Source of the DNA: a virus
DNA: 33,675 nucleotides
Virus record (IMG/VR): IMGVR_UViG_3300020221_000062
Span: 1-33,675 of that record
Strand: one strand, 5' to 3'
Shown piece by piece: positions 3,484-27,652 of this stretch (positions are counted from its first letter, which is position 1; every line of letters starts with the position of its first letter). A program made the translations under genes and the position numbers. The notes below the pieces were generated by a model. The model was not told the DNA's origin and did no database searches. It saw only the letters and a program-made list of their open reading frames with translations.

Positions 3484-3541
3484 ATCGTTCATCTGGAATA
3501 TCCAGACGGAAGTAAGCCGACTCGGAACGGATCGTTCATCT
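3484..3541 (+). ncRNA. Candidate glutamine riboswitch (glnA / Downstream-peptide type)
   Basis: The leader starts ATCGTTCATC, then a perfect hairpin TCTGGA-ATA-TCCAGA (3492-3506), then the core ACGGAAGTAAG (3506-3516), then a possible small hairpin CCG-ACT-CGG, then GGAACG (3524-3529), whose last five bases pair with CGTTC (3486-3490). Order and sequence match my memory of the glnA and Downstream-peptide RNAs of marine cyanobacteria and their phages, which bind L-glutamine. The first 11 bases recur exactly at 3531-3541, just before the ATG at 3542, so ligand binding could alter access to that start. The RNA sits under its own promoter and in front of short ORFs, the usual setting of the Downstream-peptide class. 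A covariance-model search was not possible here. Confidence 0.7.
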
Positions 3542-12603: not shown

Positions 12604-13377
12604 ATGGCAGGAATCAAACCATCAATTAAAAAGATAGATGATATAAAACATCAGTTACTGCAACCAGCATTAACTTCTCATTATATTTGTTCGATTGAAT
12701 TTCCTGTTGAAGGAAATTTTGATACGATTTTATCTGATAATGGATTCTCTAGAGGTGGAATAAGAGATTTGTTGTCCATTTCTTGCACCGAAGCAAGTCT
12801 TCCAGGATCTTCATTAGCGACTCATGAACTTAATAATGATTTTACTGGAATAACACAAAAACATGCATATCGTAGATTGTATGATGATCGTGCAGACTTT
12901 ACTTTTTATGTGGATCAAGATTATAGTCAAATTAGAATTTTTGAAATGTGGGTAAGGTACATTGCTGGAGAACAAAATGCATTTGGTGAAGGAAATAATC
13001 TTTCATATAAAGTAAATTACCCTAAAAATTATAAAGCACCAGCAATTTATATTACTAAATTTGAAAGAGACTTTGGAACAGAAAAGTCTAAAAATAAAAC
13101 CATGGAATATGCGTTTATTAATGCATTTCCCGTAGCAGTGAATTCTATTCCAGTTTCATATGATAGTTCTTCATTACTGAAAACTACAGTAGCATTTGCT
13201 TATGATCGATATATTGCAAATAATGTAAGATCTGAAAAAGCACCAATCAATGATTCAATTGCTGGAATTCCTCAAAATCCAAATTCCTTAAATTTATATG
13301 GTTCTAGGCCAACAGATATTCCTAGAACAGTTCAATTAGATCCAAATAGGCCTACATTAGCTCAGTTGAACGAGTAA
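12604..13377 (+). CDS. gp54: Baseplate tail-tube initiator gp54
   Basis: 257 residues. Gp54 forms the ring on gp48 from which gp19 tube subunits polymerise. Family hallmarks are LLSISCTEASLPGSSLATHE, then NNDFTGITQKHAYRRLYDDR, DFTFYVDQDY, and later YAFINAFPVAVNSIPVSYDS followed by TTVAFAYDRY. These match cyanophage proteins annotated as gp54 and share the tube-protein fold, so gp19-like assignment is the main alternative; position next to gp48 and length favour gp54. It reads away from gp4 across a 38-base divergent gap. Confidence 0.82.
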   Translation: MAGIKPSIKKIDDIKHQLLQPALTSHYICSIEFPVEGNFDTILSDNGFSRGGIRDLLSISCTEASLPGSSLATHELNNDFTGITQKHAYRRLYDDRADFTFYVDQDYSQIRIFEMWVRYIAGEQNAFGEGNNLSYKVNYPKNYKAPAIYITKFERDFGTEKSKNKTMEYAFINAFPVAVNSIPVSYDSSSLLKTTVAFAYDRYIANNVRSEKAPINDSIAGIPQNPNSLNLYGSRPTDIPRTVQLDPNRPTLAQLNE

Positions 13378-13383
13378 TAAATA
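13376..13383 (+). promoter_or_regulatory. Late promoter before gp26
   Basis: AATAAATA overlaps the end of the gp54 stop codon and lies 25 bases before the gp26 ATG. It fits the NATAAATA pattern at a suitable distance. Confidence 0.5.
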
Positions 13384-13408: not shown

Positions 13409-14125
13409 ATGCCTTTACCAAAGATCTCTACACCAACGTATGAGTTGGAATTGCCATCATCTGGACAAACAATTCAATATCGTCCTTTCCTAGTTCGAGA
13501 AGAGAAACTTCTTGTGATTGCGATGGAAAGTGAGGATACAAAACAAATCACAAATGCAATCAAGACTGTCATTAAGAGTTGCATTTTAACCAAGAATATT
13601 AAGGTAGAAACCTTACCAACCTTTGATATTGAATATCTCTTCCTTAACATCCGTGGAAAGTCAGTTGGAGAAGAGATTGAAATCAATATCATCTGTCCTG
13701 ATGATGAAGAAACTTCTGTTCCTGTAAAAATTGCTCTTGATGAGATTCAAGTGCAGAAGAACGAAGATCACACTAATAAGATTAAATTAGATTCATCAAT
13801 CATGATGGAGATGAAGTATCCATCACTCGATCAGTTCATCAAAAACAATTTTGATTTGAGTGGCAATACGATGGATCAATCATTTGATTTAATTGCATCT
13901 TGTATTGACAAGATTTATACTGATGATGAAGTGTGGACAGCAGGTGATGTTACGAAGAAAGAACTGATGGAGTTCTTGGATCAAATGAACTCAACTCAAT
14001 TTAAAGAGATCGAAAAGTTCTTTGAAACGATGCCTAAACTTTCTCATACTGTGAAAGTTACCAATCCGAAAACTGAAGTAGAAAGCGAAGTAGTTTTAGA
14101 AGGGTTATCGTCTTTTTTCGCATAG
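13409..14125 (+). CDS. gp26: Baseplate hub assembly protein gp26
   Basis: 238 residues starting MPLPKISTPTYELELPSSGQ, which with TIQYRPFLVREEKLLVIAME is the typical start of the T4 gp26/gp51 family. Gp26 is needed to assemble the central hub of the baseplate and may work as a chaperone for the tape-measure protein; that last idea is inference. The C-terminal part holds SFDLIASCIDKIYTDDEVWT and a helical region that fits the family. A small ORF follows after two bases, then the tape-measure-like genes, an arrangement resembling the chaperone genes before tape measures in other tailed phages. Confidence 0.85.
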   Translation: MPLPKISTPTYELELPSSGQTIQYRPFLVREEKLLVIAMESEDTKQITNAIKTVIKSCILTKNIKVETLPTFDIEYLFLNIRGKSVGEEIEINIICPDDEETSVPVKIALDEIQVQKNEDHTNKIKLDSSIMMEMKYPSLDQFIKNNFDLSGNTMDQSFDLIASCIDKIYTDDEVWTAGDVTKKELMEFLDQMNSTQFKEIEKFFETMPKLSHTVKVTNPKTEVESEVVLEGLSSFFA

Positions 14126-14127
14126 GC

Positions 14128-14310
14128 ATGATCCATATGGATCTTGAGAATTATTATCAACTTAACTTTGCCTTGATGCAGTATCATAAATACTCATTAA
14201 CGGAGATTGAAAATATGATTCCGTGGGAAAGAGACATTTATGTGGCTCTTCTGAAGAATCATTTAGAGGAAGAAGAACTCAAGCAAAAGCAACAAAGTAA
14301 TGGTTGGTAA
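14128..14310 (+). CDS. Small protein between gp26 and the tape measure
   Basis: 60 residues, MIHMDLENYYQLNFALMQYH then KYSLTEIENMIPWERDIYVA and a Glu/Lys/Gln-rich end. ATG 14128 or ATG 14137 could be the start. It is one of those short, well-conserved proteins found after gp26 in T4-like phages. Position just before the tape-measure-like gene and the WERDIYV segment suggest a tail-assembly chaperone, similar in place to lambda gpT, but this is inference. The next gene starts 11 bases before its stop. Confidence 0.75.
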   Translation: MIHMDLENYYQLNFALMQYHKYSLTEIENMIPWERDIYVALLKNHLEEEELKQKQQSNGW

Positions 14311-16159
14311 TCCTCGTACAGAAACTATAGACGAAAGAATTGTCAGGGCTTTAAATCTTGATAGTGAATTCGAAATGAGTTACGAGGAATATTCTCGTCA
14401 TCTGAAAGAAGCAATGATTGCTTCAAGAATGGCAAAGTCGCGCTATTCTTCTGAAGAATCAATGCTTTTTGGATTAGAATTTAGAAGAGTTAAGGGTAAG
14501 AAAGGTAGATTTATAATTAAAGTCAAGAAAACAAAAATCACTGCATCTGGATTGGGTTTGGGTGGATTTGCCAAACCACTGAGAATGGCACAAAGAAGAT
14601 TAATGCTTGCACCATCTCGTGCAGCTGCTGGAGTTGGAGCAGAGCAAGATATTTTTACAAAGATTGATGATCTTCTTGCATCAATTCTATCAAGTGTTAC
14701 GGAACAAAATAAAGAAACAAAAAAACAGGTTGAAAATGATAGAAAGGAAAAAGAAAATAAAAAGCGTAAGCAAAAAGAACTAGGATTAGAAAAAGGTAAA
14801 CAAGCACTTAAGAATATTGTCTCTACAATTACAAAACCATTTCAGTCAATCTTAGATAAGATTATCAACTTTTTTGTGATGACATTCCTTGGTAGAGCAG
14901 TGTTTAAACTGTTGGAATGGTTCAGTGATCCAAAGAATAAAGATAAAATTAAAACGATTTCTAAATTCTTGAAAGATTGGTGGCCTGCATTACTTGGCGC
15001 GTTTGTTTTATTTGGAACTCGTTTTGGAAAAGGAGTCAGAGTCTTAACTCGTATTGCAATAACAGCAATCGCTAAACTAGGTAAAGCATCTGTTGCTCTA
15101 CTTAGATTTGCTAAGAATAATCCTATATCAGGAGGATTGATTGCTGCTGGTGCAGTTGCAGGAACTCAACTTGCATCAAGAGCGTTTAGTGGTGGAGAAG
15201 AACAAGGATTCTGGGGTGGTGGATTTGCAAGAAAACTTTTTGCTTCTGGTGGTAGAGTCAGTGGGCCTGGTGGAATTGATAAAGTACCTGCCTGGTTAAC
15301 TAACGGCGAATTCGTCATGTCAAAGGGTGCTGTTGATAAGTTTGGTGTAGGGACACTTGAAGCAATGAATGCTGCAGGCGGGGGAACTAACGTACCAACA
15401 ATTGGCCCTGGTGGAGTGTATGCTCAAGGCGGTGGATTACTTGATTTTCTACCTGGAACTGGAACTGTTATGGCTCCAACAGGACGTGAACTTGGATATC
15501 AAGATAAACTTTTAGGATTTGATAATCCATTCACTTCTAGAAGAGTCTTATCTCAATTAAAGACTTATAGAGAGAGTGATGTAGAAAGATATAATAAAAT
15601 GCGATCCAAAGCAGGAGCATCAGATCGTCTTGTTAAAGATATGTTTGGAAGGCATAAAAGTGTTACTTTACCTCGTGCTAGAGCAAGAGCAGCACAGTCA
15701 CCTACTACACCTTCAAGAGGAGCACAAACTGCAGCTAGTATAAGTGGGTACACTCAAAATTTCAGAGATCAATATCGTCAAATCACAGGAAAAGATATTG
15801 GGACGATGAGTCAGGCAGAAGCCTACAAACACATGGCACAAAAATATGGAACGAAAACCAGAGCTGAGCAAATGGGTATGTTATCCAGAGCTAGTGGCGG
15901 AAGAGTTCCTGAAAATGCATTCCAATCTCCAGCGTCACCAAGGTTGCCAACCTTGAAGTTTATCAAACAAAAAATTTCCACATATGTTCGTCCTTTACCA
16001 AAAAGACAACCACAAACTTCAGGTATGATTGGTGCAATGCCGAATGGAAATAGTCCAGCAAGAAATACTCCCACTGCACAAGAACCACCAATCAGTTTTA
16101 ATGCTATTCATCCGAAAGGAACAAGAATTGCAGAAGCAGTCTATGGAGTTAGAAAATAA
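14300..16159 (+). CDS. Tape-measure-like tail/hub protein
   Basis: 619 residues. The N-terminal 130 residues are soluble, followed by a Lys/Glu/Gln-rich coiled coil (about 134-170), two hydrophobic segments (about 187-210, IINFFVMTFLGRAVFKLLEW, and 227-245) and a Gly/Ala-rich half. The motif GPGGIDKVPAWLTNGEFVMS (about 320-340) is the glycine-rich repeat typical of phage tape-measure proteins (GTGNTDTVPAMLTPGEFV type). It therefore probably runs inside the tail tube like T4 gp29, which is close in size (590). Its stop overlaps the next ATG by one base. Which of this and the next protein sets tail length cannot be told from sequence. Confidence 0.7.
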   Translation: MVGNPRTETIDERIVRALNLDSEFEMSYEEYSRHLKEAMIASRMAKSRYSSEESMLFGLEFRRVKGKKGRFIIKVKKTKITASGLGLGGFAKPLRMAQRRLMLAPSRAAAGVGAEQDIFTKIDDLLASILSSVTEQNKETKKQVENDRKEKENKKRKQKELGLEKGKQALKNIVSTITKPFQSILDKIINFFVMTFLGRAVFKLLEWFSDPKNKDKIKTISKFLKDWWPALLGAFVLFGTRFGKGVRVLTRIAITAIAKLGKASVALLRFAKNNPISGGLIAAGAVAGTQLASRAFSGGEEQGFWGGGFARKLFASGGRVSGPGGIDKVPAWLTNGEFVMSKGAVDKFGVGTLEAMNAAGGGTNVPTIGPGGVYAQGGGLLDFLPGTGTVMAPTGRELGYQDKLLGFDNPFTSRRVLSQLKTYRESDVERYNKMRSKAGASDRLVKDMFGRHKSVTLPRARARAAQSPTTPSRGAQTAASISGYTQNFRDQYRQITGKDIGTMSQAEAYKHMAQKYGTKTRAEQMGMLSRASGGRVPENAFQSPASPRLPTLKFIKQKISTYVRPLPKRQPQTSGMIGAMPNGNSPARNTPTAQEPPISFNAIHPKGTRIAEAVYGVRK

Positions 16160-18738
16160 TGGCAATTAACGCACAGAAGTTTCTACCACCATCAAGAACT
16201 TTTGCTGCATTAAAGCCAAGTTCTGTAGGAACTGGTGGTGGTACGTTAGTCCGCATTGAGAAAAAAGTTATTACGCTCGATAAACTTGTTAAGAATAATT
16301 TATTTCTTCAAAAGAAAGGTGGAGCACTTGCACTTCGAGAAAAAAATGCACTTGCTCTTCAAGAAAAAGAAAAAGAGTTAGAAAAAGAAAAACCTAAAAA
16401 AGTAAAAGGTTTAAGTATACCAAAACTTCCTGGATTTGGATTTTTGGGATGGGTTAAAAATTGGATTTTTAATACTATTCTTGGATTCTTTGTAGTAAGA
16501 ATGATTGATCATCTACCAAAGATGATTAAAATGGCATCATTTGTTGGCCCAGCAGCAGAGGGGATTTTAAATCTTTCTGGTGGAATATTGAATGGAATAA
16601 TATCATTCGTTGATGCTGGATATAAAGCTGTAGAAGCAACTCGTGGATTGGTTGGTAAGACTTTTGGAAATGATGCTCTTAAGCAGTTTGACACCTTAGC
16701 GAATAATTTTGAAAACTTTATGAATCTTGCCATCATTGCAGCAATGGCAAGTTCTGATGCTATTATGGGTAGTTTTGGTAAGAAAGCTGCTGAAAAAGGT
16801 GCAGGAACTATTGCCAGAAGAGGCGCAGGAAGAATGGCAACGAGAGCGGGAGCTAAAGTTGCAGGAAAAGCAGGTGCAAAGTTTGGCGCAAAAATAGGTT
16901 CTAAACTCTTGAAAGGAATTCCATTCGTAGGTGCTGCACTTGCGATTGCTGAAGGTGTGATGAGAATTCGTGAGGGTGATGTTGCTGGAGGCCTTCTTTC
17001 CTTTGGTTCAGCAATCCCTGTTGCTGGTTGGGGATTTTTAGCGGTTGATATGCTCCGTGAGTTTGGAGTTCTGAAATTTGCTGGTGGTGGATATGTAAGA
17101 AGGCCAAGAAAATATGCAGGCGGTGGATCCACATCCCCAAGAACATTATCAAAAAAACCTGCAAAGAGAAGAGTTTCTGTAGCACCACAAAAAGTCAAAC
17201 CAGGTTCTGATGTTGGTGGACAGAAAAAGGTTGAAAAAATATTCCCTAAAGCACCGCAAGACAAAAAGACTAAAACTACAGATCCATTAGGATACCTTGA
17301 AACGGCATCAAATACATTAGGGAAAGCAGATGTATTTGGCCCACTATTCACGATTGCAATCAAGACAGTTCTTGGCAACAAACCATCGTCATTGGACTAT
17401 AAAAATGCTGGTGTAGCATTGAATGGATGGGTGTCTAATAATTTTGCATCTGTAGGTAAATTTGCTAGAGGTGGTGAAGTAGATGGAAGAATGCTTTTCA
17501 CTGGTGAAGATATGAGCGATGCTATTGCTAAAGCAGTTCAAACTTCAGTATCCTCGGAGGTTGATAAAACTATTAATGATTTGATGAAGCAATTGATGTT
17601 ACAACCAGAGGCTTATCAAGAGAAAAAAGATCAACAAGCACCAACAACAACTCCAGGACAAATGACGCCAGGTTCTGTTCCTGGTGGACAATTAACAATG
17701 GAGCAATTGGTTGGACTTGCCAAAGGTGCAGGTTTTAGTGATAGAGAAGCAGTCATTATGGCAGCAATTGCCATGGCAGAGTCTGGTGGCAATTCTAATG
17801 CTCGCAACTTCAAACCACCCGATAAATCATATGGATTGTGGCAAATTAACATGTTTGGCAGTTTAGGCCCTGCAAGAATGAAAGAATATGGACTTAGTTC
17901 TGAGTCTCAATTGCTCGATCCTGTTACTAATGCTAAAGCAGCATATGCGATTAGAAAAAGTCAAGGATTGGGTGCATGGACGGTTTATAAAACTGGAAAA
18001 TATAAAAATCACCTGCAAGCTGCAGAGGCAGCAAGGAATGCACCTTCATTAGCAGTTTCTCCAAAGATGGGTGGTGCTATTAATGCTAAAGGAATTGTTG
18101 AATATATCACAGGAGATCCAAATACTCCTGTAGGTAGATTTGATCTTTCTGGACATGGAACCACAGGTAATTATCATGATCACATTGCATTTGCAACTTT
18201 GCAAGATAAAGAAAATGCGAAGGCAGCATTAAGAGCAGCAGGAATACAAATTGGTAGTGAATATAGACCTGGAGATCCTGGTTATCATGGAAAAAATTTA
18301 GCAATTGATGTTCCTGGACATCAGTGGGGAGGCCGTGGTGCGATTGGAGAAACTGAATATCGTGGCTCAAGAAAAGTTAGACAAATTTTGGGATTAGCAT
18401 CTGGAAAATTTGCTGTTGGAGGTAGAATTCCAAGGCCAACCATTGCAATGATGGGTGAAAAGGGACAAGAATTTGTATTTGATGCTGATACAACTAGGGG
18501 ACTCGATTCAATGGCTCCTGGTTTTCTTGATTATCTGAACAAAGCAAAAACAAAACCAGAGTTAGCAAATATTTTAAGAACTTATGGTGATGAACCAGAG
18601 GTGATATTTGTCCCAATACCTATGCCATCACAATCACAACCTCCAATGTCGATCGGAGGCAAATCATCATCTGGTGGTGTGGTAAATAGTCAGGATAATT
18701 CTTGGATGTTTGATCGTCTAGCAACAGGGACTGGTTAA
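16159..18738 (+). CDS. Tape-measure-like protein with lytic transglycosylase domain
   Basis: 859 residues. N-terminus: Lys/Glu coiled coil (about 55-85), a membrane-like helix (about 94-116), then Ala/Gly/Lys-rich sequence. Residues about 515-600 form a lysozyme-like transglycosylase domain with AIAMAESGGNSNARN (probable catalytic Glu541) and SYGLWQINM. Residues about 635-740 carry NYHDHIAFAT, then SEYRPGDPGYHGKNLAIDVP, which resembles D,D-carboxypeptidase or M15-type zinc peptidases. The C-terminus has GGRIPRPTIAMMGEKGQEFV (about 754-773), the ending typical of tape measures. It would open peptidoglycan during DNA injection, since the gp5-like protein downstream has no visible lysozyme domain. 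The transglycosylase call is firm; the peptidase call is tentative. Confidence 0.8.
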   Translation: MAINAQKFLPPSRTFAALKPSSVGTGGGTLVRIEKKVITLDKLVKNNLFLQKKGGALALREKNALALQEKEKELEKEKPKKVKGLSIPKLPGFGFLGWVKNWIFNTILGFFVVRMIDHLPKMIKMASFVGPAAEGILNLSGGILNGIISFVDAGYKAVEATRGLVGKTFGNDALKQFDTLANNFENFMNLAIIAAMASSDAIMGSFGKKAAEKGAGTIARRGAGRMATRAGAKVAGKAGAKFGAKIGSKLLKGIPFVGAALAIAEGVMRIREGDVAGGLLSFGSAIPVAGWGFLAVDMLREFGVLKFAGGGYVRRPRKYAGGGSTSPRTLSKKPAKRRVSVAPQKVKPGSDVGGQKKVEKIFPKAPQDKKTKTTDPLGYLETASNTLGKADVFGPLFTIAIKTVLGNKPSSLDYKNAGVALNGWVSNNFASVGKFARGGEVDGRMLFTGEDMSDAIAKAVQTSVSSEVDKTINDLMKQLMLQPEAYQEKKDQQAPTTTPGQMTPGSVPGGQLTMEQLVGLAKGAGFSDREAVIMAAIAMAESGGNSNARNFKPPDKSYGLWQINMFGSLGPARMKEYGLSSESQLLDPVTNAKAAYAIRKSQGLGAWTVYKTGKYKNHLQAAEAARNAPSLAVSPKMGGAINAKGIVEYITGDPNTPVGRFDLSGHGTTGNYHDHIAFATLQDKENAKAALRAAGIQIGSEYRPGDPGYHGKNLAIDVPGHQWGGRGAIGETEYRGSRKVRQILGLASGKFAVGGRIPRPTIAMMGEKGQEFVFDADTTRGLDSMAPGFLDYLNKAKTKPELANILRTYGDEPEVIFVPIPMPSQSQPPMSIGGKSSSGGVVNSQDNSWMFDRLATGTG

Positions 18739-18743
18739 CAGAT

Positions 18744-20126
18744 ATGTCACAAGTATTTGAGTCATTAAAGAAAAGTGATAATAATATTACACGGTTTGAG
18801 GTATATCCAAACGGTGGTGGGGAACCTATTGACATATCTCAAGGTATTGCAGAACTTCGTTACTATGAGAATGTTTTATCAGAAACTGTTAAACTTACAG
18901 TATTTGTTGCTGATACAGGAAATGCACAATCAGCGGATGATGGCACTGGAGGAAAGATTGGTATTGATGATGCATTGAAGTTGGGTAATGGTGAGAAAGT
19001 ATATGTCGAGTTCAATGATGCTTATTTTGAAGTTACTGATGAGAAATCAAATCAACTTTCATTTACCACAGATGATAAGGCTCTTTATCTGAATGAAAAA
19101 GAAAAGTTACCCGAGACACCACTCAAAAACGTTTACATGTTTGAGTTTGTCTCTAAAGAATATTTGATGAATGAGAGTAAAAGAGTTTCGAAAAGATATG
19201 ATGGAAAGATTTCCGATTCTGCTGAAAAGATACTGAAGAATGTTCTTGAGACAAAGAAAGAATTAGACATTGAGACATCTGAAAATAATTTTAACTTTAT
19301 CGGAACTCTCAAGAAACCACTGTGGATGTTAATGTGGTTAGCAAAAAAAGCAATTCCACAAAAGCAAAACGCAAAAGGAAACACTGCTGGTTATTTGTTT
19401 TTTGAAACTTATGACGGATATACATTTAAATCAATTGACTCATTATTATCGGATACTGGAGAAGGTGATAGTGGAAGTAAAGCAAAATATAAGTCTTATA
19501 TCTTCAACAATAGTCCTTCATCTGAAGTTCCTGTTGGATATGACAGCAAAATTTTAAGTTACGAAACAACTAACACAGGAAACTTCCAAGCAAAATTAAT
19601 GCTAGGAACATATAATTCTGCAAAGAATGCAATCAATGCATTTGATAGTTCATTTAATCAAAGTCCAATTGATATTTCTAGACAGATTAGAGGTATTAAT
19701 ATTGCTGGATTGGATTTTAATTTCGTAAATGACACCTTTATTCAAAATGCATCAAGATTTTCTTGGAGTTTTGATTCGGTTGGTGTTTTACCTACGGGAA
19801 ATACAATTGAAGAACAACTTGATAAATCAAAAGAATTAGATATTGATAAGTCTGAAATTCAAAATAGAGCAGCATCAAGATACAATCAACTCTTTACAAT
19901 CAAATTGGAGATTATGATTGCTGGTGATTTTAGTTTACGAGCAGGTGATTTAATCTATTGTGACTTCCCAGAATTAACAAATAAAACAAATATAGGTAAT
20001 AATCCTCGTATGAGTGGCATATATATGATATCGGCTCTTTGTCATCGTATTTCGCCTAATGAAACATATACCAAACTTGAGTTGATTAGAGACTCTTATG
20101 GTAGAAAGCCTAATAAAGCACTATGA
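18744..20126 (+). CDS. Baseplate hub protein (gp27-like)
   Basis: 460 residues starting MSQVFESLKKSDNNITRFEV. The mixture of beta strands, a first domain with AELRYYENVLSETVKLTVFV, a later ASRYNQLFTIKLEIMIAGDF then LRAGDLIYCDFPEL and the end MSGIYMISALCHRISPNETY TKL is the pattern of hub proteins (T4 gp27, phage gpD-like), in which the last domain has a barrel that contacts the spike. The position next to a gp5-like OB-fold protein supports it. Exact orthology to gp27 is inferred. The stop overlaps the next ATG (ATGA), coupling it to the CP12-like gene. Confidence 0.7.
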   Translation: MSQVFESLKKSDNNITRFEVYPNGGGEPIDISQGIAELRYYENVLSETVKLTVFVADTGNAQSADDGTGGKIGIDDALKLGNGEKVYVEFNDAYFEVTDEKSNQLSFTTDDKALYLNEKEKLPETPLKNVYMFEFVSKEYLMNESKRVSKRYDGKISDSAEKILKNVLETKKELDIETSENNFNFIGTLKKPLWMLMWLAKKAIPQKQNAKGNTAGYLFFETYDGYTFKSIDSLLSDTGEGDSGSKAKYKSYIFNNSPSSEVPVGYDSKILSYETTNTGNFQAKLMLGTYNSAKNAINAFDSSFNQSPIDISRQIRGINIAGLDFNFVNDTFIQNASRFSWSFDSVGVLPTGNTIEEQLDKSKELDIDKSEIQNRAASRYNQLFTIKLEIMIAGDFSLRAGDLIYCDFPELTNKTNIGNNPRMSGIYMISALCHRISPNETYTKLELIRDSYGRKPNKAL

Positions 20127-20341
20127 ACAACAAATCACTTCAACAACACATCAATGACGATAGGGATGAATTAGATAATCCCAACATCAACAGTCAACGT
20201 CGTCGTCATCTAGAAGATGAACTTGATGCTCTTGAACAATATCAAGCAAATCATCCAGATGATGATAAGGATCCATCTCCTTTAGAACTTTATTGTGATA
20301 TGAATCCAGATGCTCTCGAATGTAGAGTTTATGATGATTGA
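20123..20341 (+). CDS. CP12-like protein
   Basis: 72 residues. The C-terminal SPLELYCDMNPDALECRVYD D is the CP12 signature: two cysteines (58 and 67) separated by eight residues with a proline turn, then ECRVYDD. CP12 is a redox-controlled, largely disordered protein that locks GAPDH and phosphoribulokinase and so shuts down the Calvin cycle in the dark. The segment ELDALEQYQANHP may be the equivalent of the AWD.VEEL core. The N-terminal cysteine pair of full CP12 is absent, so it should bind GAPDH through the C-terminal loop only. It sits between two hub genes with overlapping starts and stops, an odd place for a metabolic gene. Called gp-type name is not warranted. Confidence 0.75.
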   Translation: MNNKSLQQHINDDRDELDNPNINSQRRRHLEDELDALEQYQANHPDDDKDPSPLELYCDMNPDALECRVYDD

Positions 20342-20343
20342 TT

Positions 20344-22635
20344 ATGTCTGAGGCTTTATCATCGGGTAATTTTGAATCAGACTTTATCACTCAACCACCA
20401 CGCTGGTGGGGTAGGATTGTATCGAAAGAATCCTACAGCAAAAACACTGATGCGTCTACATTTCAAGGCGTCTATGAGAAACCAGGTTGGGGATACAGAT
20501 ATAAGGTAAGAATTTTCAGTTGGCACTCAGGAAAAGTCACGGAAGTCAAAGACATTGATCTTCCAATGGCAAATGTTGTGCTTCCAGTCACAGCAGGTTC
20601 TGGAATTGGTGGTGCTGCAACTTCACCATCACTTGAACCAGGTTCGATTGTCACTGGATTCTTTATGGATGGAATTGGTGGACAAGAACCATGGATTGAT
20701 GGTGTCCTTGGAAATAGTAACAATAATATTCCAAAAAAACAAGGTGGCAAGAGTCCTACTAATAAACCAACGAGAACTCCACCAACAAATCTTCAAAATC
20801 TGCGAGCTGCAGAACTGAAGGAATATTTAAATCCAGCAAGAACTCCAACTTCCTTTGAATTAAAAGCAGCGCAAACAGCACGTCAAAAAGCAAGAGCGGC
20901 TGGATTACCAACTGCCGAAGTTGAAAGACAGGTTCTCATTGCGACAATTCAAGCAAAACAATTAGAAGCAGCACCAACGGAACAGTTTTTGGGATATTCT
21001 GCTTTTAATGATACTTATAGTGATTCATCCAAGAATCCATCCAAGGTTGCAGATTTTTGTAGATTTGAGGATGCTCCAGTCTCAACTTTTGATGCTGTGC
21101 ATGTCACAACAGTCGCTGCTACAACTCAAGACGAAGACAGAAAAAGAGAACAAGCACTTTTAAGCGTATGTAAAAAAGATAATTCAGAAACAAAAGCAAC
21201 AAGTGTTGTTCTTTCAAACTTAATTAATGATATTCAAAGAGCAAAAAGATTTGCACAGGACACTGAAGAGTTAGCAGTAGAAGTTGAGAACCTCATTGAA
21301 AGTGCAGTCCCTGCAATCAGTTCATACTTAAAATCAATTTTATCTCAAGCAAGAGCATACATTAATAATGAGATATCCAAAGCAGTTGAAGAAAAAGTAA
21401 CCAAACTATTTCCTACAGATGCAACTGATTTAAAAAAAGCACAAGAAAAGGCATTGGATGCTTTATCTTGCTTCTTCAATAATCTCATTGAAGGACTCGC
21501 AGATTTAATCAAAGCAGCAATTAGAGAGTTAATCAATTTATTAATCAACACTCCATTGTGCGCTGCAGAAAGTTTTTTAAGTGGATTGTTGGATCAACTC
21601 TTTGCTTTAATCAATGGAGTGTTGCCAACAGTGTTGAGTGCATTAAGTGTAGTTTTGGGCGGTATCAGAACTATTAATGTGAGTGTTCAGCAATTTGCAG
21701 GTGCTTTAACACCAATTCTGAACCTCTTTACTTGTGATCCTGCTCCAGATTGTCCTGCATATGATCAAATTAGTCTTGCTGGACTAGCAATTCCTGGCGG
21801 TATTGATTTTGGAGTTCCTTCTGCACCAGTATGTCCTATTTTCCCACAAGTTTGCGGAGCTCCAACAGTATTTTTCTTTGGCAATACTATTAATAGAGCA
21901 TTGGCAAATCCAATCGTAAGTCCAATATCCAATGCATTGATTGCTTTTGATATTATTGATCCTGGACAATATTCATCGCAACCATTTGCTGTTGTATTAG
22001 ATCAGTGTGGAACTGGATCTGGAGCAGTTGTAGAACCAATTTTAGTTGATGGACAAATTCAGAATGTTGCGATTCTAAACCCTGGAGATGGTTACTTATA
22101 TGCACCAGATGGAAGTTTGGGTGGCAATGGAGTAACTTGGAAGAAACCTTATGAGTGTTATGTAAAGACTGCAAAAGGAGAGTATTTTGTTGTTCCTTAT
22201 GGACAAGAACCACCAGAGTTAGGTGAAGGTGATGAATTAATCTGTCCACCAGAAGAACAACCACCAGCGATTTCATATCCAGTTATTCTTTGTCTCGATA
22301 GTATTCTTGTTGCAGATGGTGGATTTGGATACACTCCTGGAGATGAAATTATTATCACTCCAGATAATGGAAGTGTTGTTGAACCTGTTATAAATGATAG
22401 AGGACAAATTACAGAAGTTAAAGTCATATCTGGAGCGTGTGGTTATACAGATCTTCCTGATATTCGAACAAACTCTGAAACTGGATTCAATGCACAATTG
22501 ATTCCAGTTCTAAGGCCTCAACGTGTTGATGATGTTGCTCCTGAGGTTCTTCCTCCAGGTGTTGAAGTCATTCAAGTTATTGATTGTGTGGGTAAAATTC
22601 CACCTAAAACTACATTTGATATTGTACCAAGGTAA
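20344..22635 (+). CDS. gp5-like baseplate hub OB-fold protein
   Basis: 763 residues starting MSEALSSGNFESDFITQPPR. Residues about 18-125 look like the OB-fold of T4 gp5 and related spikes: WWGRIVSKES, GYRYKVRIFSWHSGKVTEVK, then LEPGSIVTGFFMDGIGGQEP and WIDGVLGNSNN. No lysozyme motif is visible; the middle is helical and hydrophobic (about 419-445) and the last third has beta repeats with GDGYLYAPDG (about 580) and GFGYTPGDEIIITPDNGSVV (about 660). The TTG at 20338 two codons upstream is less likely than the ATG at 20344. It is followed after 5 bases by a spike-like protein that would supply the missing needle. Confidence 0.72.
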   Translation: MSEALSSGNFESDFITQPPRWWGRIVSKESYSKNTDASTFQGVYEKPGWGYRYKVRIFSWHSGKVTEVKDIDLPMANVVLPVTAGSGIGGAATSPSLEPGSIVTGFFMDGIGGQEPWIDGVLGNSNNNIPKKQGGKSPTNKPTRTPPTNLQNLRAAELKEYLNPARTPTSFELKAAQTARQKARAAGLPTAEVERQVLIATIQAKQLEAAPTEQFLGYSAFNDTYSDSSKNPSKVADFCRFEDAPVSTFDAVHVTTVAATTQDEDRKREQALLSVCKKDNSETKATSVVLSNLINDIQRAKRFAQDTEELAVEVENLIESAVPAISSYLKSILSQARAYINNEISKAVEEKVTKLFPTDATDLKKAQEKALDALSCFFNNLIEGLADLIKAAIRELINLLINTPLCAAESFLSGLLDQLFALINGVLPTVLSALSVVLGGIRTINVSVQQFAGALTPILNLFTCDPAPDCPAYDQISLAGLAIPGGIDFGVPSAPVCPIFPQVCGAPTVFFFGNTINRALANPIVSPISNALIAFDIIDPGQYSSQPFAVVLDQCGTGSGAVVEPILVDGQIQNVAILNPGDGYLYAPDGSLGGNGVTWKKPYECYVKTAKGEYFVVPYGQEPPELGEGDELICPPEEQPPAISYPVILCLDSILVADGGFGYTPGDEIIITPDNGSVVEPVINDRGQITEVKVISGACGYTDLPDIRTNSETGFNAQLIPVLRPQRVDDVAPEVLPPGVEVIQVIDCVGKIPPKTTFDIVPR

Positions 22636-23191: not shown

Positions 23192-24112
23192 ATGAGTGGA
23201 ATGTCAATATCGCCAGAAATGATGTCTGGCCCGCTGTATGTAACCAGCGATAAATCAAAACCCAAAGCACTTAGAGATGGTGATAAGGACATAACTGGAG
23301 CGACTTATCTTCAAGGCCCAGTTCAGATTGGTATCGACGGAGCATATTCTTCCGTAGATGCAACTTTAATGGTTGGTAACTTGCAAAACAACCAGGCAGC
23401 AACTCCGGATAATGCTTTATATGTAAAAGGAAATACAACTCATGAGGGAAATTATACTCACACTGGTGATATGACACAAACTGGTGATTATATTCAGAAA
23501 GGTGATGTTGAACATATTGGCGATAGTTACCATGAGGGATGCTTTACAGTTGTAAGTCCACCAACATGTAGCTCACAATTCCAAGCAAATTTGGATATTG
23601 ATGGATATGTTCATATGACACAAGAACTTGAAGTTGGTACAACAGGACAGTTTGGTGGAAATGTAACTGCTTCTGAATTTACTGCTGGTGGCATCACATT
23701 AACTTCAAGAAAAGCATTTGATATTCCTCATCCAACGAAAGAAGGGTGGAGACTCAGGCACATCTGTCCAGAAGGCCCCACTGCAGATGTTTATGTTCGT
23801 GGTAGAATTACAAATAAAACAAAGATTGAACTTCCACATTATTGGATGAAACTTGTAGATCCGCGAACGATTACAGTATCTTTGACTCCCATTGGGGCAC
23901 ATCAAGATATTACAATTAAAAGAATTTCAGACAATGAAGTTCATCTCCAAGCAAAAGGTGGAATGCCAATTGACTGTTTTTATCACATTTATGGTGAAAG
24001 AATGGATGGAGAAAAACTGATTGCTGAGTATCAAGGAGATACTCCAGAAGCATATCCAGGGGACAATTCACAGTATTCTGTCGCTGGATATCATTACGAT
24101 CAGAGGGGTTGA
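23192..24112 (+). CDS. Fibre- or spike-like virion protein
   Basis: 306 residues. The N-terminal third has LYVTSDKSKPKALRDGDKDI and a short repeat THTGDMTQTGDYIQKGDVEH (about 87-107), typical of trimeric beta-structured fibres. The C-terminal part, RKAFDIPHPTKEGWRLRHIC then EGPTADVYVRGRI, LVDPRTITVSLTPIGAHQDI and PIDCFYHIYGER, is a conserved module seen in virion proteins of many aquatic viruses. The protein is probably a surface-exposed tail or baseplate component. It ends the late structural run; its stop is contained in the -35 box of the next promoter. Confidence 0.7.
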   Translation: MSGMSISPEMMSGPLYVTSDKSKPKALRDGDKDITGATYLQGPVQIGIDGAYSSVDATLMVGNLQNNQAATPDNALYVKGNTTHEGNYTHTGDMTQTGDYIQKGDVEHIGDSYHEGCFTVVSPPTCSSQFQANLDIDGYVHMTQELEVGTTGQFGGNVTASEFTAGGITLTSRKAFDIPHPTKEGWRLRHICPEGPTADVYVRGRITNKTKIELPHYWMKLVDPRTITVSLTPIGAHQDITIKRISDNEVHLQAKGGMPIDCFYHIYGERMDGEKLIAEYQGDTPEAYPGDNSQYSVAGYHYDQRG

Positions 24113-24137
24113 CAGGGTTCTTTGGATGTACTATAAT
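24109..24137 (+). promoter_or_regulatory. Consensus sigma70 promoter of the tRNA region
   Basis: Perfect TTGACA (24109-24114), 17-base spacer, perfect TATAAT (24132-24137). The -35 box contains the TGA stop of the fibre-like gene. It should give strong early transcription of the tRNA and small-ORF cluster. Confidence 0.92.
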
Positions 24138-24450: not shown

Positions 24451-24657
24451 ATGAATCCCTACAAAATCAAACAAGCATCTTTAAAAGAGATTCCAGTGAA
24501 AACAACACCAGAAAATGTACGAGAGGCAAATGAAGGGTTATTTCATGCTAAAATGACTTTACCCGCTGCTGCTAAACATTGTGGAATGACACAAAAAGAA
24601 ATGAAGTTGACATTCTTTGAGTTCTTGAAGTATAATCCACCTACTTACCAAACGTAG
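24451..24657 (+). CDS. Small HTH-like conserved protein
   Basis: 68 residues starting MNPYKIKQASLKEIPVKTTP. The region LPAAAKHCGMTQKEMKLTFF looks like a helix-turn-helix: AAAKHCGM turn, then TQKEMKLTF as recognition helix, so it may bind DNA; this is inference. The ATG at 24451 is chosen because an earlier in-frame start would run through tRNA-Gly. It lies between tRNA-Gly and tRNA-Leu in the same transcript. I do not know a function. Confidence 0.7.
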   Translation: MNPYKIKQASLKEIPVKTTPENVREANEGLFHAKMTLPAAAKHCGMTQKEMKLTFFEFLKYNPPTYQT

Positions 24658-25720: not shown

Positions 25721-25843
25721 TAAACGTAAACAAACCTAGATATTTTTTTACTATTCAATTCAAAAATTCCAATTTAACTTATCAAAAAGTATATAATTGG
25801 AGCGTAAAGAATAAACTATTATCTTGGAAACAAAACAAAGTTG

Positions 25844-26455
25844 ATGAGTAAAAGTGCTTACTTTATAGATAGTGTGAAGAAGTGTGAAGTAGAAGATCTG
25901 CTTTACACTTTTCATTATCTAAAGGATGAAAGTAAAACTTTTAAGACTCAATACAATTATGGCCTCTACAGAAATTCTGTTACGGATATTCTGCACGTTG
26001 GTGGTTGTCTCGGGGTGTGCATCTTTACTGGGCTCTCAGTCCCAGAAATAGCAGTAGGCGCATTTGGTTTAGAAAGACATGAACAAAATGGACTTTATGA
26101 ACTTTCGAGACTTTGTATTCATCCAGATCTTCAAAAAGAAGAGCATAATATTACATCATGGTTTGTGAGTCGTTGTATCAAGAGGTTTAGAAAAGATGCC
26201 CGCGTTCGTTGTATTCTTAGTTACGCTGATGCTAATCACCACTCTGGAACTATATACAGAGCTTGTAATTTTAAGTATTACGGTTTAACCGATCCAAAAA
26301 AAGATTTTTATTATGCTGACGGAACTAAACATTCTAGGGGTAGTGTTAGAGGTATTGATGGTGAGTGGAGGGATCGCTCTCGTAAACATCGCTATCTTAT
26401 GGTATTCGAAAAGGAACTAAAAGAACGCTTGACATGGAAAGAAAAATCGTGGTAA
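25844..26455 (+). CDS. Mom-like GNAT protein, candidate DNA modifier
   Basis: 203 residues starting MSKSAYFIDSVKKCEVEDLL. The order of elements fits the phage Mu Mom family (a GNAT-fold protein that makes methylcarbamoyl-adenine in DNA, hiding phage DNA from restriction): TFHYLKDESKT, NYGLYRNSVTDI, GGCLGVCIFTGLSVPE, YELSRLCIHPDLQ, and near the C-terminus RCILSYADANHHSGTIYRAC followed by NFKYYGLT. SYAD..HHSGTIYRA.NF is the most telling segment. The enzyme uses acetyl-CoA in Mu as far as known. Family membership is from memory; target base and real activity are inference. The 123-base gap before it is AT-rich with a TATAAT but no good -35. A promoter for the next gene lies inside its 3' end. 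Confidence 0.75.
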   Translation: MSKSAYFIDSVKKCEVEDLLYTFHYLKDESKTFKTQYNYGLYRNSVTDILHVGGCLGVCIFTGLSVPEIAVGAFGLERHEQNGLYELSRLCIHPDLQKEEHNITSWFVSRCIKRFRKDARVRCILSYADANHHSGTIYRACNFKYYGLTDPKKDFYYADGTKHSRGSVRGIDGEWRDRSRKHRYLMVFEKELKERLTWKEKSW

Positions 26456-26458
26456 AAT
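26429..26458 (+). promoter_or_regulatory. Sigma70-type promoter before the halogenase-like gene
   Basis: TTGACA (26429-26434), 18-base spacer, TAAAAT (26453-26458), 18 bases before the ATG at 26477. It lies mainly inside the Mom-like gene. Confidence 0.75.
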
Positions 26459-26476
26459 ATTATAAAAAATAATTAT

Positions 26477-27652
26477 ATGAAAATTGCAATTATTGGAAAA
26501 GGCACTGCATCCATTGTAACCGCACTTACATGTATTAAAAATAATCATGAAGTTGATATCTATTATGATCCAAACCAACCGCATATCAGTGTAGGAGAAT
26601 CTACCACACCACATGTTGCACAATTAATATATGAAATTCTTGGATTAAATATTTTTGATTTAATAGAAGAAGATATTGCATCTATTAAACAAGGAATTAA
26701 ATTTATTAATTGGGGAAATGGAACATCATTTAAACATATATTTCAAAATAATCAAATTGCTTTTCATTTTGAAACTCAAAAATTTAATCCATTTATCAAC
26801 AATATTTTAGAACAAAATAATTATATAAAATACATCCCTAAAAGAGTAAATGAATATAGAATTGATGAAGATAAAGTTTATATTGAAGATGAATGTTATG
26901 ACTTTATAATTTTTTGCTCGGGGTGGTGTAATGAATCCGAATATATTAAACCATACTTTGAAACAGTAAATTCTGGTGTTTTATTTACTGACGAAAAAAT
27001 AAATGAATATGGATTTACACTTCATAATGCAACGGAAGATGGATGGCAATTTGGATTACCTTTTCCAAATAAAAATATTACAAAATGTGGTTATTTGTTT
27101 GATAGAAACAAAATTTCTATAGATAAAGTCAAAAAAAAATTAAAGCATCTTGAAATAAAAAATAGTTATGAATGGACGCCAAAATTTTCTAAAAAAATAA
27201 TTCAAAATCAACACATAGCTTATAATGGAAATAAACTTTTTTTCTTAGAACCTCTTCAAGCTCTTTCAATTTATTATTTCATTGAATTTGCAAATTTTAT
27301 TTGTGAATATTTGAAAGATAGATCTGTTGAAAATTTTTGTAAAATTAATAAAAATTATCACTATGAAATGTGGACATATCAATTATCTTTAGCATATCAC
27401 TATCAATATGGATCAATTTATGATAGTAACTTTTGGAATATAACCAAGAAAAAGGCAAAAGAATTTATGTCGTTTACTATTAACGGAAATGAAGAATTAC
27501 TTCTTTCTCATATGGTTAATGATATAATTTTAAAAGGAAAAACAGATCTTTCAAAAATTGGTATTTTCGGATTTGATGATATTCGTCAATTGCATTGTGG
27601 AATGACACAAACTAAAATAAATGATATTTTTGAAAAATACTTGACAATTTAA
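26477..27652 (+). CDS. Flavin-dependent halogenase-like protein
   Basis: 391 residues. The N-terminus MKIAIIGKGTASIVTALTCI is an FAD-binding Rossmann motif. VGESTTPHVAQL (39-50) is the GEST.P signature of tryptophan halogenases, and Lys71 in ASIKQGIKFINWG aligns with the catalytic lysine of that family. DGWQFGLPFPN (188-198) resembles the WxWxIP motif with the second Trp replaced by Phe, and LFFLEPLQALSI (254-265) the FLDPL segment near the flavin. Typical halogenases have 500-550 residues, so this is a short form. Similar genes are known in cyanophages; substrate and halide use are unknown, and a hydroxylase role is possible. The gene is very AT-rich. It has its own promoter. Confidence 0.85.
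   Translation: MKIAIIGKGTASIVTALTCIKNNHEVDIYYDPNQPHISVGESTTPHVAQLIYEILGLNIFDLIEEDIASIKQGIKFINWGNGTSFKHIFQNNQIAFHFETQKFNPFINNILEQNNYIKYIPKRVNEYRIDEDKVYIEDECYDFIIFCSGWCNESEYIKPYFETVNSGVLFTDEKINEYGFTLHNATEDGWQFGLPFPNKNITKCGYLFDRNKISIDKVKKKLKHLEIKNSYEWTPKFSKKIIQNQHIAYNGNKLFFLEPLQALSIYYFIEFANFICEYLKDRSVENFCKINKNYHYEMWTYQLSLAYHYQYGSIYDSNFWNITKKKAKEFMSFTINGNEELLLSHMVNDIILKGKTDLSKIGIFGFDDIRQLHCGMTQTKINDIFEKYLTI

Follow-up and report, generated by a model that had tools for sequence, protein, structure and literature searches.

A C-type CP12 gene packed into the baseplate hub gene run of a T4-like cyanophage fragment and its apparent tie to late-type promoter motifs

Phage cp12 is a textbook example of an auxiliary metabolic gene. 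Its product is believed to channel carbon and NADPH into nucleotide synthesis, and such a role predicts that cp12 is expressed together with the replication genes. A position of cp12 near gp5 is one of several locations described by Sullivan et al. (2010). The gene, its gp5 neighborhood and the hypothesis that phage CP12 inhibits the Calvin cycle, which an earlier note on this DNA had taken up, have already been published and are not new. In cyanophage P-HM2, cp12 belongs to the middle expression cluster, like all auxiliary genes of this phage (PMC5082946). The late promoter of T4-like cyanophages has been described as NATAAATA (PMC2984593), and the GAPDH-binding site of CP12 is located at its C-terminus (PMC11257934).

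The stretch of DNA analyzed here (33,675 nucleotides, hereafter the window) represents part of a T4-like cyanophage genome. Its left part contains a psbA gene truncated by the window start, together with phoH and genes for thymidylate synthase, a helicase loader and a gp32-like protein. These are followed by gp53/gp48/gp2/gp4-type genes on the minus strand, and then by a plus-strand run composed of tail tube, gp26-like, gp51-like, two large ORFs, GC15-type, cp12, gp5-like and more ORFs. The tightly packed part of this run opens with the gp26-like baseplate hub gene (13409-14125, plus strand, as are all the following; Pfam T4_baseplate, E = 9e-78) and a gp51-like baseplate hub assembly catalyst (14128-14310; phrog_634, E = 3.2e-29). 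It continues with a large ORF of unknown function (14300-16159; phrog_35029, E = 1.2e-60), which has gaps of -11 and -1 to its neighbors, and an ORF with a lysozyme-like (SLT) domain (16159-18738; Pfam SLT_3, E = 1.2e-17). A T4-GC15 tail (hub) protein gene (18744-20126; phrog_350, E = 8e-77) lies directly upstream of cp12 (20123-20341), and the gp5-like baseplate hub/tail lysozyme gene (20344-22635; phrog_1922, E = 3.3e-76) follows. The intergenic gaps from the gp26-like gene to the ORF at 23192 range from -11 to +5 nucleotides. The earlier placement of cp12 inside a baseplate hub operon is supported in that the gene sits tightly packed in this hub gene run. It is also evident that cp12 starts on the stop of a hub gene and ends 2 bases before the gp5-like start, as had been claimed: the cp12 ATG overlaps the TGA of the GC15-type ORF by 4 nucleotides (ATGA), and the gp5-like gene, listed from a TTG at 20338, has its in-frame ATG at 20344, 2 nucleotides past the cp12 stop. 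A special meaning of the 4-nucleotide overlap was considered and rejected: among 55 distinct loci, 14 have a spacing of -4 and 40 others one of +1 to +43, and adjacent gene pairs in the window are packed alike.

Several other elements were observed on the plus strand of the window. A glutamine riboswitch aptamer (Rfam RF01739, 37.5 bits, gathering 35) is present at 3484-3533. Just past the hub gene run, beside tRNA-Gly, tRNA-Leu and tRNA-Thr genes, there are two perfect sigma-70 consensus promoters (24109-24137 and 24607-24636; TTGACA, 17 or 18 nucleotides, TATAAT). A Mom-like DNA modification protein gene (phrog_1384) and then a tryptophan halogenase-like gene (phrog_2928) occupy 25841-27652.

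On homology, the ORF at 20123-20341 is a CP12 gene. Its 72-residue translation, MNNKSLQQHINDDRDELDNPNINSQRRRHLEDELDALEQYQANHPDDDKDPSPLELYCDMNPDALECRVYDD, matches Pfam PF02672 with E = 4.7e-15 (56.5 bits; cut-off, 22.7) over residues 6-71 (66 of the 72 residues) and phrog_627 with E = 1.4e-24. The best PDB sequence matches are CP12 chains, some of them solved with GAPDH (e.g., 6gfo, E = 1.6e-05). Together, these matches put the CP12 identity far beyond chance, and the CP12 HMM search, which had been named beforehand as a refuting test, returned a match. The C-terminal end of the protein is LYCDMNPDALECRVYDD. It contains the pair C58-x8-C67 followed by RVYDD (20294-20323, plus strand), a putative GAPDH-binding C-terminus that aligns to CP12 chains solved with GAPDH. 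With C58, C67 and ECRVYDD all present, the protein shows the C-type pattern (C-x8-C with ECRxYDD), and its N-terminal half is free of cysteines, which sets it apart from the canonical N/C type; the C-terminal signature and the lack of an N-terminal cysteine pair had both been read correctly before. The AWD_VEE core is not recognizable in the window CP12, in which EDELDALEQYQ is aligned opposite WDALEELQAE of 6gfo. The AlphaFold model consists of three helices (mean pLDDT 90.6), and its top PDB fold match is CP12 in the cyanobacterial GAPDH-CP12 structure 6gfo. It is a weak match, with E = 0.03 (probability 0.97) and an rmsd of 11 over 71 columns, and it supports, without proving, a predicted GAPDH-bound form of the same kind.

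We then compared the cysteine patterns of phage and host proteins. The C-x8-C pair is present in all 171 distinct phage CP12s and in all 62 distinct picocyanobacterial host CP12s, and a loss of the cysteines in close relatives, the other refuting test that had been proposed, was thus not observed. By contrast, an N-terminal C-x6-9-C pair is found in none of the 171 phage or 62 host proteins. Most of these 62 host CP12s are 72 residues long, and each of the five host genomes checked has a single CP12. Since the CP12 of S. elongatus lacks the N-terminal pair yet is functional (PMC11257934), this pair is not required for the C type. The lack of the pair in the 62 host proteins and in the functional S. 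elongatus protein makes it most likely that the short form came from the host as is, and removes the missing N-terminal cysteines as a mark of a recycled fold, as the earlier note had taken them to be. The function more likely to be missing is PRK binding. Records titled Bifidobacterium breve and Flavobacteriia also carry picocyanobacterial CP12, and these bins are probably mislabelled or contaminated.

Conservation of CP12 is highest in the C-terminal tail, in phage and host alike. Among 42 close relatives, cp12 has a median dN/dS of 0.13, with each of the 298 usable pairs under 0.5; the putative GAPDH-binding signature in the tail is kept under strong purifying selection. In the phylogenetic tree, the phage CP12s, including that of the window, fall on one side of a branch with support 100/99 and the hosts on the opposite side. 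The tree has only 71 columns and its hosts were sampled from the best 80 matches, so that it is compatible with a single phage acquisition of cp12 rather than proof of it. The P-HM2 CP12 groups with hub-linked relatives inside the phage clade, suggesting that the location of P-HM2 cp12 beside talC is derived.

CP12 was found by tblastn in 372 annotated phage records. In a first set of 59 distinct cp12 proteins, GC15 is directly upstream of cp12 in 54 of the 55 loci with detectable GC15. In a larger and more diverse set, a GC15 match ends no more than 300 nucleotides upstream of cp12 in at least 163 of 234 loci, a lower bound because GC15 diverges and a single GC15 sequence served as the query. 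Among annotated isolates, the order tail gene-cp12-gp5 with nothing between is found in S-RSM4, S-SSM7, S-CAM4, S-T4, DSL-LC02, S-SCSM1 and SynMITS9220M01. Other genes or tRNAs lie between cp12 and gp5 in Syn19, S-WAM1, S-SZBM1, S-CREM1 and metaG-MbCM1, and cp12 is located away from the hub genes in P-HM2, S-SKS1 and S-SRM01. In P-HM2, GC15 and gp5 directly adjoin, with no cp12 between them.

The motif NATAAATA is found about 30 nucleotides before the first gene of the packed run, as in a T4-type late unit: an ATAAATA at 13377-13383 (plus strand), at -32 of the gp26-like ATG, is the candidate promoter of a transcript carrying cp12. A second ATAAATA, of uncertain function, is located inside the gp51-like ORF (14186-14192, plus strand), 29 nucleotides before an in-frame ATG. 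P-HM2 likewise has ATAAATA at -29 of its annotated gp51, which is 31 codons long; the motif could point to a different gp51 start or to an internal late promoter. There is no ATAAATA between 14192 and 20123. The whole window contains 7 copies of the motif against 11 expected; a window-wide enrichment was therefore rejected, and the evidence lies in the position of the motif in relatives.

Among 179 distinct phage cp12 upstream sequences, NTAAATA is located at -45 to -24 of cp12 in all 69 with a gap of at least 25 nucleotides, in 18 of the 21 with a gap of 13-24 nucleotides and in 1 of the 89 packed ones, with a chance expectation of about 1.3% per upstream sequence. The exact ATAAATA accounts for 61, 8 and 1 of these, respectively. 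The search had been widened after a first look, from -36 to -24 and ATAAATA to -45 to -24 and NTAAATA; the stricter first count was 54 of 69 at gaps of at least 25 nucleotides versus 1 of 89 packed. As a control, a motif of the NTAAATA type precedes only 10 of the 54 P-HM2 genes whose upstream gap is 25 nucleotides or more, showing that the pattern is not common to all gaps. Related upstream sequences are not independent, and the counts therefore overstate the number of events, but the pattern spans divergent phages, Syn19, S-WAM1, P-SSM3, S-SRM01, S-SKS1 and S-SZBM1 among them. When 70 phage cp12 upstream sequences were aligned on the motif, the information was mainly in ATAAATA and just downstream of it, and no conserved -35 element was found. 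Packed copies of cp12 such as that of the window appear to ride on the hub operon. The late-type control that had been proposed for this cp12 is thus suggested from two sides, by the ATAAATA that precedes the first hub gene at -32 with none directly before cp12, and by an NTAAATA of their own in relatives with a gap. Judged from these motifs, cp12 in the window and in nearly all sampled relatives looks wired to the late, particle-building program. The novel part of this work is a testable regulatory claim, namely that cp12 is tied to a late-type program across cyanophages.

The measured case of P-HM2 has to be weighed against this claim. P-HM2 cp12 has ATAAATA at -31, overlapping TTGACA, and is nevertheless expressed in the middle cluster, so the motif alone is no proof of late timing. 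An overlap of ATAAATA and TTGACA before cp12 (cttgacATAAATActtgtatagtatag) is seen in P-HM2 and its close relatives, and only in this group. It could be a hybrid promoter, which would possibly explain the middle expression, and hub-linked cp12 may behave differently from P-HM2 cp12. The competing explanation is that cp12 is a middle-time gene despite its hub position, expressed with the replication genes from an internal promoter or through middle-time use of ATAAATA. In addition to the P-HM2 data, it can draw on the proposal that middle genes of cyanophages may be transcribed from overlapping early and late promoters (PMC2984593) and on one sigma-70-like site in the window that matches at 10 of 12 positions (19974-20003). 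However, sigma-70-like sites in the region number 38 against 40 in shuffles, a count indistinguishable from chance by which a strong internal sigma-70 promoter was rejected. The 70 aligned upstream sequences show no conserved -35 element, and the TTGACA overlap is confined to the P-HM2 group. We consider middle-time expression unlikely, although it keeps a real share of the probability. A broader proposal, which we hold tentatively and at somewhat below an even chance, is that cp12 is generally late, being either packed in the late hub operon or provided with its own NTAAATA. Inhibition of the Calvin cycle would then be strongest at virion assembly rather than at genome replication, and the middle class of P-HM2 would be a special case resulting from relocation beside talC and a promoter that overlaps TTGACA.

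We propose, with good though not full confidence, that the window encodes a phage C-type CP12 that probably acts as a cytoplasmic GAPDH inhibitor and is read from a late-type hub transcript. Its C-terminal tail, with a C-x8-C disulphide, would bind GAPDH in the host cytoplasm and slow NADPH use by the Calvin cycle, leaving NADPH and pentose phosphates for phage synthesis, while PRK engagement in the canonical style is probably absent. The window cp12 lacks a promoter motif to itself; it is probably transcribed as part of a late-type message that starts before the gp26-like gene, and its translation would be coupled to that of the upstream hub gene; late timing is predicted in the same way. Cytoplasmic GAPDH inhibition is the likeliest role since the C-terminal signature is conserved under strong purifying selection. 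The charged helical middle of phage CP12, unlike the canonical AWD_VEE, and the ECL in place of ECR in some phage CP12s could indicate a different partner, in that a protein without the canonical N-terminal half forms no GAPDH-CP12-PRK complex and regulates something else. This is improbable, given that the tail is the part best conserved in phage and host and that the picocyanobacterial hosts, with one CP12 in each of the five genomes checked, share the short form. That cp12 is a decaying or neutral passenger might be thought from its small size, its accessory nature and the empty hub slot of relatives such as P-HM2, but its low dN/dS contradicts decay, and a gene present in 372 records whose promoter motif is kept whenever it is unpacked is almost certainly no passenger.

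The earlier note had also raised a virion role for a recycled CP12 fold. In such a role the fold might serve as a small part of the hub or baseplate, or the protein might be packaged and delivered on entry. The tight packing and 4-nucleotide overlap of cp12 would agree with a virion role, as would the presence in virions of the flanking gene products, GC15 and gp5; GC15 has been detected in the S-SM1 virion (PMC3037559), and gp5 is likewise a virion protein in S-SM1. S-SCSM1 shares the gene order of the window, and its record gives the virion-protein label to gp5 and to the tape-measure gene two places before cp12, but not to CP12. On its own this is weak evidence, because the adjoining GC15-type gene lacks the label too. 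In the available portions of the reports, however, the non-structural virion proteins named for S-SCSM1 do not include CP12, and the virion proteomes of S-SZBM1 (30 proteins) and S-CREM1 (14 proteins) are presented without CP12, although it is annotated and hub-linked in these phages. An 8-kDa protein is easily missed by mass spectrometry, and this absence is evidence against a virion role rather than its exclusion. The location of cp12 away from the hub in three phages and the hub without cp12 in P-HM2 also argue against it. A virion role is therefore disfavored, and we regard it as very improbable.

The motif in 69 of 69 unpacked upstream sequences points to the late transcription machinery as controlling cp12 in the majority of the cyanophages sampled. 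Should expression data bear this out, what phage CP12 is for would have to be reconsidered: it might, for example, provide energy for late protein synthesis, or the Calvin cycle might be stopped before lysis.

The window cp12 adds one more member to an established gene family, and its location is likewise known. It is most similar to the cyanophage CP12 of T4-GC337/phrog_627 (e.g., SynMITS9220M01, S-RSM4, S-SSM7 and Syn19), with which it shares a similar length, the C-x8-C tail and the slot between the GC15 tail gene and gp5, whereas some phrog_627 relatives have cpeT, tRNAs or other genes before gp5. Among the matches listed, its identity to annotated phage records is at most 68%, and identical copies occur in only two uncultured viral contigs. 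The P-HM2 CP12 belongs to the same family (46% identity) and has the same tail and an ATAAATA at -31, but its gene is located beside talC in a metabolic region and not in a hub operon. Canonical CP12-N/C, such as that of Synechocystis, shares the C-terminal cysteine pair and tail with the window CP12 and differs in having an N-terminal cysteine pair and the AWD_VEE core (PMC11257934), both of which the window protein lacks. The CP12 of picocyanobacterial hosts (e.g., Synechococcus WH7803) has the same 72-residue form without N-terminal cysteines and the same C-terminal signature, but carries AKAEGN...KVRHL where the phages have NPxxSxQxRRH and lies on a separate side of the tree.
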